NCBI RefSeq assembly: GCF_012926505.1
Contig: NZ_JABBNT010000001.1
Coordinates: 62,001 to 126,000 of the forward strand
Length of the DNA: 64,000 nt
Direction of reading: 5' to 3'
Origin: Pacificispira spongiicola
GTDB lineage: Bacteria > Pseudomonadota > Alphaproteobacteria > UBA8366 > Aestuariispiraceae
Position 1 is the first letter of the stretch; each line of letters starts with the position of its first letter. The position numbers and the translations under genes were made by a program. A model generated the notes under the pieces. The model had not been told where the DNA came from, did not search any database, and saw only the letters and a program-made list of their open reading frames with translations. This document shows positions 14,283-19,305 of the stretch, one piece after another.

Positions 14283-14365
14283 CCGTTCGCGTTAACCAAC
14301 CGTTAACGTATCCCCCCCTAGCCTGATCACGGGTGGGGAAACTAGAAACGGGAAGAATTCCACGT

Positions 14366-14959
14366 ATGGTTTCGTCCATTATATCCCATGTGGACGGTTT
14401 TGGACTGCAGGCGTCAGAAGACTCCGCACTGAAACCGGAACATGACGGCCATATTTGGCTCGGCAATTTCTTGAAGTCCAAGATGGTCGACGGATACGTC
14501 GACCGCGCGGCCATTCAACCGGAAGACATTCAACCGGCCCTTCTACCGTGCTTGATCGTCCTGGACCGGCTGCCTGCGGATGGTGAGGTCAGGGCCGATT
14601 TCGTCTATCGTCTGATGGGCGGCACATTGGTCGACTATGCCGGGGTCAATATGACGGGAAAGCTGCTGTCCACCTTTCCGCATCCGGATATCCGGGCCAG
14701 TATGGAAACCTACTCCCATGCCGTCTGCGACCATATAAAACCTTTGTTTTCCGCCACGCATGCCACCTTCGGCAACAGCGACACCGTCTTCACGGAACGC
14801 AGCCTCTATCCGACGATCAAGGGCGAAACAACGGGCATCATCGCCCTGATCACGGTCAACGCCCCGCCCGCTCCTTACGACTCGGTCAAGGAAAGCCCGA
14901 ACTACCGCCACGTCCGCGAACACTACCGTTTGCTCAATGATGTGGGGTGCTGGGGCTGA
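14366..14959 (+). CDS. PAS_5-type PAS domain protein
   Basis: This 197-residue protein has one PAS-like domain: FVYRLMGGTLVDYAGVNMTGKLLSTF is the core, and TERSLYPTIKGETTGIIALIT is the last strand pair. A second, divergent member lies at 60078. Such single-domain proteins are frequent in Rhodospirillales; partners and ligands are unknown. The chosen ATG has GGGAAG about 10 bp upstream; a GTG at 14333 is an alternative. It marks the left edge of the AT-rich island. Confidence 0.75.
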   Translation: MVSSIISHVDGFGLQASEDSALKPEHDGHIWLGNFLKSKMVDGYVDRAAIQPEDIQPALLPCLIVLDRLPADGEVRADFVYRLMGGTLVDYAGVNMTGKLLSTFPHPDIRASMETYSHAVCDHIKPLFSATHATFGNSDTVFTERSLYPTIKGETTGIIALITVNAPPAPYDSVKESPNYRHVREHYRLLNDVGCWG

Positions 14960-15249
14960 TCGATCCACAAAGAAAGTCCAATTTCCCGCGCGAAAGGATT
15001 CTTCAACACAAAAACACGCATGCATTTCACACAAACAAAAAAATTAACTATATAATATTAATATTTTCTTTACTTTATTTTTTCTTTCTATTCCGAAAAT
15101 TATACAAAACTACCCTGTGTTCTTAAACACACTTAATCACGTATAGGAACGTTATGCTCCAGCTTAAATCTACTAAAACCACACATTGACAGAGAAACAC
15201 TCTCCACCCAAAATCGTAAAACTTTCAATATTATCGAAAAAGCAAAAAA
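14960..15249. other. AT-rich leader of the genomic island, no gene seen
   Basis: These 290 bp hold no supported gene. Base composition drops sharply: the line 15061-15120 has 14 G/C in 60. A TATAAT box occurs at 15051-15056 and other AT-rich promoter-like stretches lie between 15040 and 15100. An 11-codon ATG frame starts at 15154 and is not claimed as a gene. Confidence 0.6.
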
Positions 15250-16278
15250 ATGGCGATCACAGCAATCCATAGCTTCCTAGTACATCCCCTAAAAGGTGCT
15301 AAGAATCCATTTAAAGTTGGCGGCACAGAAGTCACTTTTTCCGGCAAACTTTATGACTTACTTGATGAGGTCTACACTAGAAGCGAAAGTGAATGCAGCA
15401 TTCCAATTGCATTTAGGATGAGCGAAGATGGAACTCAAACCAATAGATGCAGAACAATTATCCAGGACCATCTCAAGCATGAAAATTTAACAACCGGGTC
15501 CGCCATCGCTAAAAGGCTATCTGAAAATACGACAAAACGTTCGAGCCTAGGACTGCTATTTCTAATATGCGGCAACGAAGTTGGTGCATCACCGTACAAA
15601 AAACTTGTTATTTCACGTTTCCCAGTCAACAGCGCTATTCTAGCGGAGGAAAATTCTGAAAAGCTGAGTATTGAATTCTTGGAACGTGTATTTATGAGAA
15701 GCGCTCACGCTTATAAATCTGTTCTATATAAGGATTCATCTATTGATCATGGATTCTGGAAGGGACATGCGGTAGATCGCCAAGTAAATAGCGGCGATAT
15801 TGAAACATCTGCTTATTGGATAAATGATTTTCTGGACTCGGAATACGCGACCACGCCAAAGCAGGGGACGATGAGATTAGCTTCAGCTTTCCGAAAGGCA
15901 ACGCAGGTCACAGATGATTTGGATATCAAACAAGAGTTAACAGCAGCATCAATTCTATTTAAGAATTTTGATGGACAAACTTTAAGTGCCGAATCTGCCC
16001 TTTCTTCTCTTGGGCTATCTGAAAAATCTAGAAACCTGATATTATCTCAATTCAAAAATCCTTCTTTAGCAAAGGAGCGATTTACTTTTAATGCGACTCT
16101 TTTTTCCACTGAGACACCATATCGGTCCATCCAATTGGACACAGGCGCAACTCTGATGGCTCAAACGGAAAAATTTGACGATTTATTCAAACGCACTGAA
16201 TCAGACAATGAAGACCAGCTTGTTACTTACAGCACTAGCGGTCGTATAACATCCGAACGCATCGAGAAACGCAGATGA
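15250..16278 (+). CDS. Unrecognised 342-residue protein, partner of the RelA/SpoT-type gene
   Basis: No family is claimed with confidence. The protein is soluble, with no signal or membrane segment. An N-terminal part resembles the start of 37-kDa nucleoid-associated proteins only vaguely; central landmarks are HGFWKGHAVDRQV (about 175-187) and SAYWINDFLDSEY (about 195-207), and the C-terminus has YRSIQLDTGATL and GRITSERIEKRR. Codon use is AT-rich, unlike all neighbours. The stop overlaps the next start (ATGA at 16275), so the two are translationally coupled. A two-gene layout with a stand-alone synthetase downstream suggests antitoxin, sensor or effector partner; that is inference. The ribosome-binding site is poor. 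Confidence 0.7.
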   Translation: MAITAIHSFLVHPLKGAKNPFKVGGTEVTFSGKLYDLLDEVYTRSESECSIPIAFRMSEDGTQTNRCRTIIQDHLKHENLTTGSAIAKRLSENTTKRSSLGLLFLICGNEVGASPYKKLVISRFPVNSAILAEENSEKLSIEFLERVFMRSAHAYKSVLYKDSSIDHGFWKGHAVDRQVNSGDIETSAYWINDFLDSEYATTPKQGTMRLASAFRKATQVTDDLDIKQELTAASILFKNFDGQTLSAESALSSLGLSEKSRNLILSQFKNPSLAKERFTFNATLFSTETPYRSIQLDTGATLMAQTEKFDDLFKRTESDNEDQLVTYSTSGRITSERIEKRR

Positions 16279-16907
16279 ACGATTTAGAAAAAGTTTATAC
16301 TGAGAGATACAACAAACATTTATTCGGAATCTGTAAAGAGCTCGAAGACTACATTCGACTTTGCTTACGCGATGTAAGTCGAATTGATAGAATCACGACA
16401 AGACCAAAATCAATCAAAAGCTTTATCGAGAAATCAAAATCTACCGATAACGCAGGAGACAAGAAATACCTAGATCCGATAAACCAAATACAAGACCAAA
16501 TAGGAGCACGTATTATAACATTTTACACCAGAGATGTTGAGCGAATTTACGAATTATTACTTGAATCACTTAAACCAATAGAGCAAAAAAACAGAATCCC
16601 AGATTCTGAATGGGAGTTCGGATATTTTGGAAACCACTCTATCTTTCTGTTACCTACTGAAGTTTACGAATCGGACTTTGAGCCGGGAGTTGTTCCTCAA
16701 TTTTTTGAGTTGCAGATAAAAACGATGTTCCAACATGCTTGGTCCGAGGCAAACCATGACCTCGGGTATAAGAACATAGAAGCAAGCATGTCGCCCAATG
16801 ACAAAAGACTGTTAGCATTTACGTCTGCGCAGGCTTGGGGGGCGGATTTCACGTTTAACGACCTATCGGCCAAACACCTATCGGATTATCCAGAAACAAA
16901 GCACTAA
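16275..16907 (+). CDS. Stand-alone RelA/SpoT-type nucleotide pyrophosphokinase domain protein
   Basis: This 210-residue protein is a synthetase-only domain without the HD hydrolase, TGS or ACT parts of long RSH proteins. Key elements are present: RPKSIKSFIEK (about 43-53), Mg-binding Asp74 in DQIGARI, the G-loop equivalent FGYFGNHS (115-122, tyrosine and histidine kept), and catalytic Glu145 in ELQIKTMFQHAWSE. The catalytic residues look intact, so it could make (p)ppGpp-like alarmones or pyrophosphorylate tRNA as toxic SAS enzymes do. It overlaps the upstream gene by 4 bp and lies in an AT-rich island. No hydrolase is nearby; the partner may neutralise it. Confidence 0.85.
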   Translation: MNDLEKVYTERYNKHLFGICKELEDYIRLCLRDVSRIDRITTRPKSIKSFIEKSKSTDNAGDKKYLDPINQIQDQIGARIITFYTRDVERIYELLLESLKPIEQKNRIPDSEWEFGYFGNHSIFLLPTEVYESDFEPGVVPQFFELQIKTMFQHAWSEANHDLGYKNIEASMSPNDKRLLAFTSAQAWGADFTFNDLSAKHLSDYPETKH

Positions 16908-16930
16908 ATCGATATCCATCGAAAAAGAAT

Positions 16931-16958
16931 AATGGCTCCGCAATAAAGCGGAGCCATT
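16931..16958 (-). terminator. Terminator of clpA, possibly bidirectional
   Basis: AATGGCTCCGC and GCGGAGCCATT pair perfectly (11 bp, 6-nt loop). On the minus strand the hairpin is followed by ATTCTTTTTC, which suits clpA termination. The plus side lacks a T-run but may still slow transcription from the island. Confidence 0.8.
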
Positions 16959-16983
16959 AAGCTCTAAACTATAGTCATGCACC

Positions 16984-19305
16984 TCAGGCCTTCTCGCCCT
17001 TCTTCGTGCCTTTTTTGGACTTCGACTTTTTCGCCGGTGTATCCGGGAAGGCGAAGCGGAGTTTGTTTTCCGCCTTGTCGACGTCGACCAGGACCGACCC
17101 GCCATTGGACAGCTTGCCGAACAGCAGTTCTTCGGCCAGCGGGCGTTTGATGTGTTCCTGGATGACGCGGGCGAGCGGGCGGGCGCCGTAGCGGTCGCTG
17201 TAGCCCTTGTCGCCGAGCCAGACGCGGGCCTCGTCCGTCAGGTCGATGGTCACGTCGCGTTCGGCAAGCTGGGTTTCCAACTGGATGACGAACTTGTCGA
17301 CAACGCGGCCGATAACGTCCTTGGACAGGGACGCGAACGGGATGATGGCATCCAGACGGTTGCGGAATTCCGGCGTGAACAGGCGTTCGATCGCTTCCGT
17401 ATCCTCGCCTTCCCGCTTTTCCCGGCCGAAGCCTATGGCGGGCTTTGCCATATCCGTCGCCCCGGCATTCGTCGTCATGATCAGAACGACGTTTCGGAAG
17501 TCGACCGACTTGCCGTTATTGTCCGTCAGCTTGCCGTGATCCATGACCTGCAACAGGACGTTGAACAGGTCCGGATGGGCCTTTTCGATTTCGTCCAGCA
17601 GCAGCACGCAATGCGGCGTCTGATCGATGGCGTCGGTCAACAGACCGCCCTGGTCGAAGCCGACATAGCCCGGGGGCGCGCCGATCAGACGGGACACGGT
17701 GTGCCGTTCCATATATTCTGACATGTCGAAGCGCTTGAGCTCGACGCCCATGGTGCGGGCCAGTTGCTTCGCCACTTCCGTCTTGCCGACGCCGGTCGGG
17801 CCGGAGAACAGGTAGGACCCGATCGGCTTTTCCGGTTCACGCAGGCCCGCACGGGCCAGCTTGATCGCGGAGGTGAGCGCGTCGATCGCCTGATCCTGGC
17901 CATAGACCATGGTCTTGAGGTCGGATTCGAGGTTGGACAGCGCGTCGCGGTCGTCGCGGCTGACCTGTTTCGGGGGGATGCGCGCAATCTTCGCGACCAC
18001 GGCTTCCACATCCTTGGTGCCGATCTGTTTCTTCCGCTTGCTTTCGGCCAGCAGCATCTGGGCCGCGCCGACCTCGTCGATCACGTCGATCGCCTTGTCC
18101 GGCAGCTTGCGGTCGTTGATGTAGCGCGAGGACAGTTCCACCGCCGTCTTGATCGCATCCTGGGTATATTTCACCCCGTGATGCTCCTCGTAATAGGGTT
18201 TCAGGCCCATAAGGATCTTGATCGAATCCTCGACCGACGGTTCGGTCACGTCGATCTTCTGGAAACGGCGGGCCAGCGCCCGATCCTTTTCGAAGTGACC
18301 GCGATATTCCTTATAGGTCGTGGACCCGATGCAGCGCAGGGAACCGTTCTGCAAGGCGGGTTTCAGAAGGTTGGACGCGTCCATCGCGCCGCCCGTGGTC
18401 GCCCCGGCGCCGATCACCGTGTGAATTTCGTCGATGAACAGGATCGCGCCGTCGGTCTGTTCCAGTTCCTTCATCACGGCCTTCAGCCGTTCTTCGAAGT
18501 CGCCGCGATATCGCGTCCCGGCCAGCAACGAGCCCATGTCGAGCGAGAAGATGGTGCAGGTCGCCAGCACGTCCGGCACGTCCAGTTCGACAATGCGCTT
18601 CGCCAGCCCTTCGGCGATGGCGGTCTTGCCAACGCCCGGATCGCCGACCAGCAGCGGGTTGTTCTTGGTCCGGCGGCACAGGACCTGAATGACGCGTTCC
18701 ACTTCCTGCGTTCGTCCGATCAGCGGATCGATCTTCCCCTCGCCCGCCTTCTTGTTCAGATCGACGCAATAGGCGTCCAGCGCCTCATGCCCCGACTTGT
18801 TCACATCTTCGGCCTTCGCGTCTTCTTCCGTCCCGGACGGGGCGGCCTGGGTCGGGTTCGGTTCCTGACCCGGCACCTTCGCAATGCCGTGGGAGATGTA
18901 GTTCACCGCGTCGAACCGCGTCATATCCTGAAGCTGCAGGAAATAGACTGCGTGGCTTTCGCGTTCGGAGAAGATGGCGACCAGGACATTCGCGCCCGTC
19001 ACTTCTTCCCGGCCAGAGGATTGCACATGGATCGCCGCGCGTTGCAGCACCCGCTGGAACCCGGCGGTCGGCTTGGGATCCTCGCTCAACAACGTGACCA
19101 GATTGCTGAGGTCGTTGTCGATATAATCCGCCAGGTTGCCCGTCAGCTTTTCCATATCGATGCCGCAGGCCCGCATGACGGCAATCGCGTCCTGATCCTC
19201 GGTAAGGGCCAGCAGGAGATGTTCCAGCGTGGCGTATTCGTGATTACGCTCCCCGGCCAGCGTGAGGGCCCGGTGCAGCGTCTGTTCGAGAACCTTGGAC
19301 AGCAT
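16984..19305 (-). CDS. clpA: ATP-dependent Clp protease ATPase subunit ClpA
   Basis: The 773-residue AAA+ unfoldase feeds substrates to ClpP. It has the N-terminal double Clp repeat (residues 1-140) that binds ClpS, D1 Walker [14 protein letters not shown], Walker [14 protein letters not shown]2 Walker [14 protein letters not shown] and Walker [13 protein letters not shown] lysine-rich tail ends the protein. It follows clpS by 146 bp in the same direction, the usual pairing for N-end-rule degradation. Length and motif order are normal. Confidence 0.97.

Follow-up and report, generated by a model that had tools for sequence, protein, structure and literature searches.

Toxic small alarmone synthetases (toxSAS), such as FaRel2/ATfaRel2, PhRel, PhRel2, CapRel, FaRel/AT2faRel, and Tas1/Tis1, combine a stand-alone synthetase domain with a coupled partner, and some of them are phage-borne or phage-defensive. 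The antitoxin domains described for these systems include pZFD (with PAD1), Tis1, and PanA (PMC11782079), and tRNA-targeting toxSAS are reported to use a basic groove (PMC11559606). Other small alarmone synthetases (SAS), RelQ (SAS1/YjbM) and RelP (SAS2/YwaC), belong to the housekeeping machinery. For the YejK/NdpA proteins (NA37 in Pfam, PF04245), a clear role has, to our knowledge, long been lacking. Here, we analysed a window of 64,000 nucleotides from Pacificispira spongiicola (contig NZ_JABBNT010000001.1, positions 62,001 to 126,000), in which an AT-rich two-gene module encodes a 342-residue partner, predicted to be a very divergent YejK/NdpA protein, and a 210-residue alarmone synthetase. 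Our results suggest that the pair is a little-known growth-stopping switch, probably directed against phages.

The window pair shares with toxSAS systems a stand-alone synthetase domain that lacks a hydrolase domain and keeps its catalytic residues, as well as the tight two-gene organization with a cognate partner. It differs from them in that the partner has a predicted YejK fold and the synthetase is further from toxSAS than from RelQ/RelP. The catalytic residues are common to the window synthetase and RelQ/RelP, while an identity of approximately 22%, Lys149, Phe115, a YejK-like operon mate, and a frequent location on mobile elements set the window synthetase and its family apart. With the NA37 proteins the partner has overall fold and profile similarity in common, whereas it lacks a Pfam NA37 match at E ≤ 1, shows only 12% identity to E. 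coli YejK (9be2), and is coupled to a synthetase.

Co-occurrence and co-divergence of the two genes

One genome per species, 84,980 species in all, was scanned with a synthetase profile, with no selection for the partner, and 75 loci were recovered. By record title they come from Alpha-, Beta-, and Gammaproteobacteria, Desulfo- genera, Planctomycetes, Eremiobacterota, and Chloroflexi, with further loci in Acidobacteria, Gemmatimonadetes, Chitinophagales, a Treponema, and others. Rare joint occurrence of the two genes would have spoken against the original prediction of a coupled pair; in 72 of the 75 loci the synthetase is immediately preceded, on the same strand, by partner sequence, whether intact or broken, with none in L015, L076, and L087 (L numbers denote individual loci). 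Some loci are not independent, as L041/L042 come from one genome and L066–L068, L027/L028, and L011/L034 are near-identical. The spacing is exactly −4 in 51 of the 70 loci with both genes scored, and the other spacings include alternative starts and interrupted genes. The coupling of the pair is thus near-obligatory.

The two proteins also diverge together. The partner alignment (A5) has 58 rows and the synthetase alignment (A6) 66, with the window copy and viral L011 and L012 included and plasmid copies left out; 20 of the 75 loci are absent from A5 and 12 from A6 because they are redundant (L027, L034, L042, L067), short, broken, or at a contig end. Pairwise distances of partners and synthetases correlate with r 0.80 over 57 pairs, a value reached in 0 of 2000 permutations (permutation maximum 0.20), which argues for inheritance of the two genes as one unit. 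All four loci that lack a credible partner have a broken synthetase, disrupted by a stop at codon 32 (L015), an insertion sequence (IS; L076), reduction to a remnant (L087), and a broken C-terminal frame (viral L148), as expected if the synthetase cannot be maintained alone. Single tblastn partner matches in L015 and L076, at 0.006–0.007 with 65 queries, were taken as chance. The phage-borne synthetase of L148 was considered as a partnerless counter-example and ruled out on account of its broken frame; on this phage contig (L148:990-3095) only 3 bp separate a terminase-like gene, named by eye, from the family synthetase downstream of it.

Predicted fold of the partner and type of the synthetase

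The original prediction held that the partner matches no family. This holds when the sequence is searched by itself against the libraries, which returned chance matches only in Pfam (Cep192_D5 at 0.01) and nothing in NCBIfam, PADLOC, or the Protein Data Bank (PDB), but not for the family, which fold and profile comparisons place with NA37/YejK. A six-sequence partner profile had MarR (0.015) as its best PDB match, and the window partner gave no Pfam NA37 match at E ≤ 1, so that the curated cut-off was missed; weak matches to this model appeared in 2 of the 58 family members (best 0.0033). An AlphaFold2 (AF2) model built from the 58-row alignment has a pLDDT (predicted local distance difference test) of 88.7. 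With this model, Foldseek found one PDB match at E ≤ 0.001, E. coli YejK 9be2 (E 9.8e-6, probability 1.00), and VIA-align gave Z 13.7 over 294 residues for the same structure, with the next row at Z 6.0. The root-mean-square deviation is 13.9 Å, and therefore the parts of the partner and of YejK are not superposable as one body but placed differently. A fold match to KwaB (Z 4.2) was within noise. No pZFD, Tis1, or PanA was found in Pfam searches of the partner and its relatives, nor among the PDB fold matches listed for the partner.

Profile comparisons point in the same direction. The model phrog_1974 matches residues 6–324 of the window partner at 2.9e-4 and 22 of the 58 partners at E up to 1 (best 1.5e-7), and it matches the NA37 protein of L110 at 5e-43. 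In hhalign, the partner family against 20 NA37 proteins reached P 6.7e-5 with a score of 42.2; at least five of the 20 shuffled controls scored 14.5–17.0 and none of the 20 exceeded a probability of 0.9%. Against six synthetase-linked NA37 proteins, P was 2.8e-13 and the score 101.4, with no score above 21.1 among 20 shuffles; these six proteins matched the NA37 set at P 4.5e-22. Predicted fold and profile homology thus place the partner among the YejK/NdpA (NA37) proteins, as a very divergent member. NA37 itself was found in none of 190 genomes of the class to which P. spongiicola belongs.

The synthetase was described at the outset as having no hydrolase domain, and Pfam indeed gives RelA_SpoT alone above the cut-off (E 3.1e-13). 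Asp74, Glu145, and the G-Y-F-G-N-H loop with Tyr117 and His121 are all present as predicted. Loss of catalytic residues in the subgroup would likewise have spoken against the original prediction; K45, D74, R79, Y117, H121, E145, and Q147 are invariant in all 66 intact synthetases, and Arg43 is kept in 65 of the 66 aligned. Lys149 is found in 65 of 66 family members at a position where 17 of 17 other RelA/SpoT homologues (RSH) or SAS compared carry Arg, and further signatures are ELQ[IV]KT and an invariant Phe115 before the GY loop.

The original prediction of a new subtype of ToxSAS/CapRel could not be sustained: RelQ/RelP are nearer by profile and fold, and the partner has a predicted YejK fold. 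Among solved proteins the closest by profile are YjbM/RelQ (8.8e-14) and RelP (6.5e-11), against 0.016 for CapRel. The AF2 model (pLDDT 90.3) yields fold Z scores of 18.3 for RelQ/SAS1, 17.6 for RelP, 12.1 for CapRel, 10.4 for Tas1, and 7.4 for FaRel2. Neither profile nor fold groups the synthetase with known toxSAS over RelQ/RelP, and with the nearest fold, the nearest profile, and a full active site it is of the RelQ/RelP type. It is acidic (net −7), as are 59 of 66 family members, compared with +18 for CapRel, a weak form of evidence since several other compared synthetases are acidic too. Membership in toxSAS/CapRel is unsupported because of this RelQ/RelP resemblance and acidity, and the same profile, fold, and charge data make a tRNA-modifying toxSAS less likely than an alarmone maker; the product would be an alarmone rather than a modified tRNA. 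The synthetase tree is poorly resolved, with supports down to 0.03, and leaves the sister status of two NA37-linked clades undecided. The genome of P. spongiicola encodes one further RelA_SpoT protein, a long one.

A second pairing of NA37 proteins with synthetases

One plasmid match of the window synthetase led to an Ochrobactrum quorumnocens plasmid, on which a 362-aa "nucleoid-associated protein" (Pfam NA37, 1.5e-11) overlaps a 332-aa RelA/SpoT protein by 4 nt. This NA37 protein matched five records of the plasmid collection, among them its own and those of two near-identical gonococci. All five have a synthetase homologue as the neighbouring gene; the Neisseria one is split over two frames. 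Searching E. coli genomes with the DNA of a related Klebsiella pair gave hits in 3 of 5,426, and all three have NA37, a "GTP pyrophosphokinase", and a DUF4231/SLATT gene (two by direct view, the third by annotation alone); of the E. coli loci, one adjoins an integrase located at a tRNA gene, and another has mobilisation genes as neighbours. In a phylum survey of 150 genomes, a synthetase adjoins 1 of 25 NA37 loci (the low-scoring L110), while the other 24 show none within about 1.5 kb. The Ochrobactrum NA37 protein had no match in viral contigs, nor did the Klebsiella one in phage records by tblastn. An NA37-type protein together with an alarmone synthetase is a recurrent combination.

These operons, from E. 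coli, Klebsiella, Ochrobactrum, Neisseria, and Streptomyces, have the same families, gene order, and 4-nt overlap or near-contact as the window pair, and mobile-element genes stand beside several of them. They differ in a partner that is recognisably NA37, a synthetase of approximately 330 aa with a C-terminal extension, and, in enterobacteria, a SLATT gene. Four of the five NA37-operon sequences form their own clade in the synthetase tree (support 1.00), with the Streptomyces one elsewhere. We know of no name for these operons. E. coli and a conjugative plasmid of Klebsiella carry the enterobacterial form, SLATT/DUF4231 followed by NA37 and a 330-aa RelA/SpoT protein (L143:5528-8078, L144:4145-6719, and L140:4518-7081), which looks like an uncharacterised nucleotide-signalling defence operon. 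Its SLATT protein weakly matches PADLOC models of 2TM effectors (best 4e-6), and SLATT proteins have been predicted to be nucleotide-responsive pore formers (PMC7159879). Another synthetase–sensor combination is present on a Klebsiella plasmid (L135:237-3220), where a 704-aa NACHT protein with an inactive restriction endonuclease domain directly precedes a RelA/SpoT protein of 288 aa; in the alignment, this protein has other residues in place of the Tyr and His of the G-loop.

Insertion site and mobility of the module

The two genes form an island of low guanine–cytosine (GC) content between GC-rich flanks, as originally described. The earlier counts of 19 G/C in 60 at 16261-16320 and 14 in 60 at 15061-15120 were exact on recounting, and the 2,024 bp at 14960-16983 have a GC content of 0.392, compared with a minimum of 0.542 among 5,793 windows of the same length elsewhere in the 64 kb (0.39 for the pair, against 0.60). 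The two genes have GC contents of 0.36 and 0.39 at third codon positions, versus 0.68 in the PAS-like gene and 0.82 in clpA. The predicted ATGA overlap of the two open reading frames (ORFs), both on the forward strand, is present (Table 1). Promoter-like sites number 6 in the region, with 4.3 expected. The hairpin 3' of the synthetase gene may also terminate the transcript of the pair.

Table 1. Features of the two-gene module and its flanks; positions are those of the window.
Feature	Position	Strand	Remarks
AT-rich leader	14960..15249	+	GC 0.31
Promoter-like site TTGACA-17-CAAAAT	15186-15214	+	35 bp 5' of first gene; consensus match only
Partner gene, 342 aa, predicted divergent YejK/NdpA (NA37)-like	15250..16278	+	ORF, AF2 model, Foldseek, hhalign
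Stop/start overlap ATGA of both genes	16275..16278	+	Sequence
Small alarmone synthetase gene, 210 aa, RelA_SpoT domain only	16275..16907	+	Pfam, AF2 model, fold
Catalytic Asp74 codon in QIQDQIGAR	16494..16496	+	Invariant in 66/66 intact family members
G-loop Tyr117–His121 (YFGNH of GYFGNH)	16623..16637	+	Tyr117 and His121 each 66/66
Catalytic Glu145 codon in FELQIKT	16707..16709	+	Glu in 66/66
12-bp perfect hairpin, T-rich tail on − strand	16930..16959	.	z −6.5; scored as − strand terminator (clpA)
Left flank, PAS-like gene	14333..14959	+	PAS_5 0.0005, just below Pfam cut-off; outside module
Right flank, clpA	16984..19305	-	Named by eye; outside module

The comparison with a relative that lacks the insert, proposed in the original prediction, was provided by the same-genus genome G002, in which 75 bp separate the PAS-like gene from clpA. 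Because 2,024 bp occupy this interval in the window, the pair is inserted when G002 is taken as the reference. The 3' end of clpA is conserved at the DNA level in all six same-genus genomes, the genome of P. spongiicola counted, and the PAS-like gene has a DNA match in two of the six (this genome and G002); in the other four a different long ORF adjoins clpA. Of 59 relatives, and likewise of 385 genomes of the class, a single one carries the partner, P. spongiicola itself both times. These data support horizontal acquisition of a mobile two-gene unit. In place of the window hairpin, the empty site of G002 carries another, GC-rich inverted repeat.

Mobility is evident across the family. The partner found six plasmid records by tblastn (five Rhizobium, one Agrobacterium), all six predicted to be conjugative, with the synthetase directly 3' in five; in NZ_CP016290 the partner reaches the record end, the synthetase stands at the record start, and an IS481 transposase gene lies between them. 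On these plasmids, DarT-like, TIR, AbiJ, AAA, UvrD-helicase, and ImmA genes are found within a few kb of the pair. In L012 the pair adjoins what, judged by eye, is a type III restriction-modification system between serine recombinases; in L011 it lies 3' of a phage repressor, in a prophage that looks Mu-like by eye; and in L147, on a tailed phage, it has the portal gene on one side and the major head gene on the other. In the viral collection the synthetase matched four loci, three with the pair, although a scan of viral contigs with the partner as query was unsuccessful; in phage records the partner was not found and the synthetase had three distant matches only. In 52 of 64 loci, counting those on plasmids and in viruses, the GC content of the module falls short of that of its flanks by more than 2 points.

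Among the 128 nearest neighbours at 69 of 72 loci (L034, L042, and L067 dropped), integrase and recombinase domains occur, and the PADLOC matches listed include restriction-modification, MADS, and DISARM methylase models. At 1e-10, the neighbours matched 251 PADLOC models, compared with eight matched among the 54 other genes of the window, a contrast that is only indicative because models rather than proteins were counted and the control is one core region. A defence or mobile neighbourhood is seen for many relatives in the family and not for the window copy.

Possible functions of the pair

On balance, we lean towards reading the pair as a mobile, toxin–antitoxin-like phage-defence module of two genes, in which a YejK-like restrainer and sensor is combined with a RelQ-type alarmone synthetase. 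Its basis is the linkage, order, and co-divergence of the genes, the active site, the predicted folds, the mobility, the insertion relative to G002, and the relatives carried by phages or placed among defence genes. In such a module, the YejK/NdpA-like protein would be produced first and the synthetase co-produced by translational coupling, and the former would keep the latter silent in a complex while serving as the sensor. A phage or other element that disturbs the nucleoid or engages the YejK-like protein would release the synthetase, which would then overproduce an alarmone, (p)ppGpp or (p)ppApp, and halt growth before the phage is completed. We infer that the partner inhibits the synthetase and senses DNA or phage, with protection as the outcome; the large upstream antitoxin or sensor of the original prediction remains a reasonable inference. 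A YejK domain is among the newly validated E. coli defence domains of DefensePredictor (PMC13092281), which makes a defence role more likely. Alarmone, ppGpp, and SpoT are absent from the main text of that report, and the novelty of the present pairing could shrink if its operon is SLATT–NA37–synthetase.

Several observations weigh against this defence module. Toxicity, neutralisation, and protection by the pair are predictions, and the closest relatives of the synthetase are the housekeeping RelQ/RelP. DNA binding by the partner is not evident because the protein is not basic overall (net charge −1; median 0 over 58 members), and the single NdpA2 assayed did not shift DNA of the promoter chosen (PMC8565334). 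The window copy sits between the PAS-like gene and clpA, with few other PADLOC matches in the window. Shared vertical history could account for part of the distance correlation. The synthetase is also broken in five loci that bear a partner, L074, L081, L083, L085 (where the partner is intact and an IS256-like element lies inside the synthetase), and L086, so that decay may be a general fate of the pair, and few cases underlie the pattern in the four partnerless loci. Furthermore, the isolates L022 and L030 have an intact synthetase frame with only approximately residues 128–338 and 224–338 of the partner, about the first 127 or 223 residues being lost; either the synthetase does not strictly require a complete partner, or the C-terminal portion of the partner is enough, or the synthetase is silent. 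Three metagenome-assembled genomes (L050, L063, L073) likewise combine an interrupted partner frame with an intact synthetase.

A tRNA-modifying toxSAS toxin with its upstream antitoxin would account for the overlapping antitoxin-then-toxin order, the synthetase domain without a hydrolase, a weak PADLOC match to PDC-S33 (4.8e-8), and the presence of CapRel among the fold matches, but it appears unlikely given how much nearer RelQ/RelP are by profile and fold; the acidic synthetase, set against CapRel and the basic groove reported for tRNA-targeting toxSAS (PMC11559606), is weak evidence in the same sense. We are similarly doubtful of nucleotide-signalling immunity, in which the YejK-like protein would sense phage DNA and turn the synthetase on, the alarmone then acting as a second messenger for an effector. 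That effector would be the SLATT two-helix membrane protein, the first gene of the enterobacterial operon, and a host target in the two-gene form. The SLATT/DUF4231 gene directly 5' of the NA37–RelA/SpoT pair in Klebsiella and E. coli, the weak 2TM effector matches, the pore prediction (PMC7159879), and the RelQ-like catalytic fold are all in keeping with it, whereas the window pair adjoins no SLATT gene, alarmones are also ordinary growth regulators, and alarmone sensing by SLATT is only a prediction. A bolder version, which we regard as speculative and improbable, is a new class of nucleotide-based immunity in which a YejK-like sensor of invading or damaged DNA gates a RelQ-type synthetase and the alarmone is the infection signal, the ancestor being NA37 plus synthetase and the SLATT pore an enterobacterial addition. 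If true, the stringent response would, in defence, be tied to the structure of the chromosome.

Explanations without a primary role in defence seem less probable still. Post-segregational killing that maintains plasmids and islands, with defence secondary, would suit the six plasmid records, all predicted conjugative, and the broken synthetases of the four partnerless loci; it is quite unlikely for a window copy that is a single insertion beside clpA, for a partner that is large and predicted to be well folded, unlike labile antitoxins, and for a family in which L022 and L030 tolerate a truncated partner. There is even less to be said for a regulatory cassette that serves mobile elements, with host silencing altered by the YejK-like protein, much as by NdpA2 of PAPI-1, and host growth tuned by the synthetase for transfer or lysogeny, and with no defence involved. 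In its favour, the YejK homologue NdpA2 boosts PAPI-1 transfer with TprA and changes MvaT binding (PMC8565334), and the pair is found on predicted conjugative plasmids, near integrase and recombinase domains, and inside phage contigs. Such a cassette leaves an active alarmone synthetase unexplained, does not fit a window copy between the PAS-like gene and clpA, and has no counterpart in the account of NdpA2, where a synthetase does not appear among what is described (PMC8565334).

The predicted YejK fold is thus found coupled to alarmone synthetases of two or more distinct families, across many phyla and on phage contigs. This coupling gives YejK-like proteins a concrete candidate function as regulators or sensors of an alarmone-making enzyme. 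It would also add a partner fold, YejK, to the toxin-antitoxin-like alarmone systems, and a RelQ-type synthetase, not a tRNA-modifying one, to the likely defence effectors.

Additional observations

Three synthetases that start at residue 77–80 were considered as marks of a fixed attachment site, which was rejected as they trace to an IS256-like element (L085), an IS3-like element (L076), and a remnant (L087). The synthetase is cut near the D74/R79 segment in two unrelated genomes, by the IS256-like element at L085:6438-8381 and the IS3-like element at L076:6825-8402, both transposases being named by eye.

A conserved 160-aa protein without a Pfam match adjoins the pair (L005:9697-10251, L004:9695-10300, L003:9699-10307, and L083:8312-8971); it occurs in 10 rhizobial or agrobacterial loci, on the opposite strand in eight, and the window has clpA in this place. 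Just upstream of the pair, L005:5985-7598 is an adenylosuccinate-synthetase-like gene transcribed divergently from it (537 aa, Pfam 6e-56). This family was found in 2 of the 128 neighbours, and by size and place L027:4965-6590 and L028:5019-6644 probably belong to it. In four sphingomonad loci, a gene of approximately 3 kb lies 3' of the pair (L051:8683-11724, L054:8929-12021, L057:8623-11724, and L071:8627-11539). Three neighbours have UvrA domains in Pfam, and recurrent insertion beside uvrA in sphingomonads is possible.

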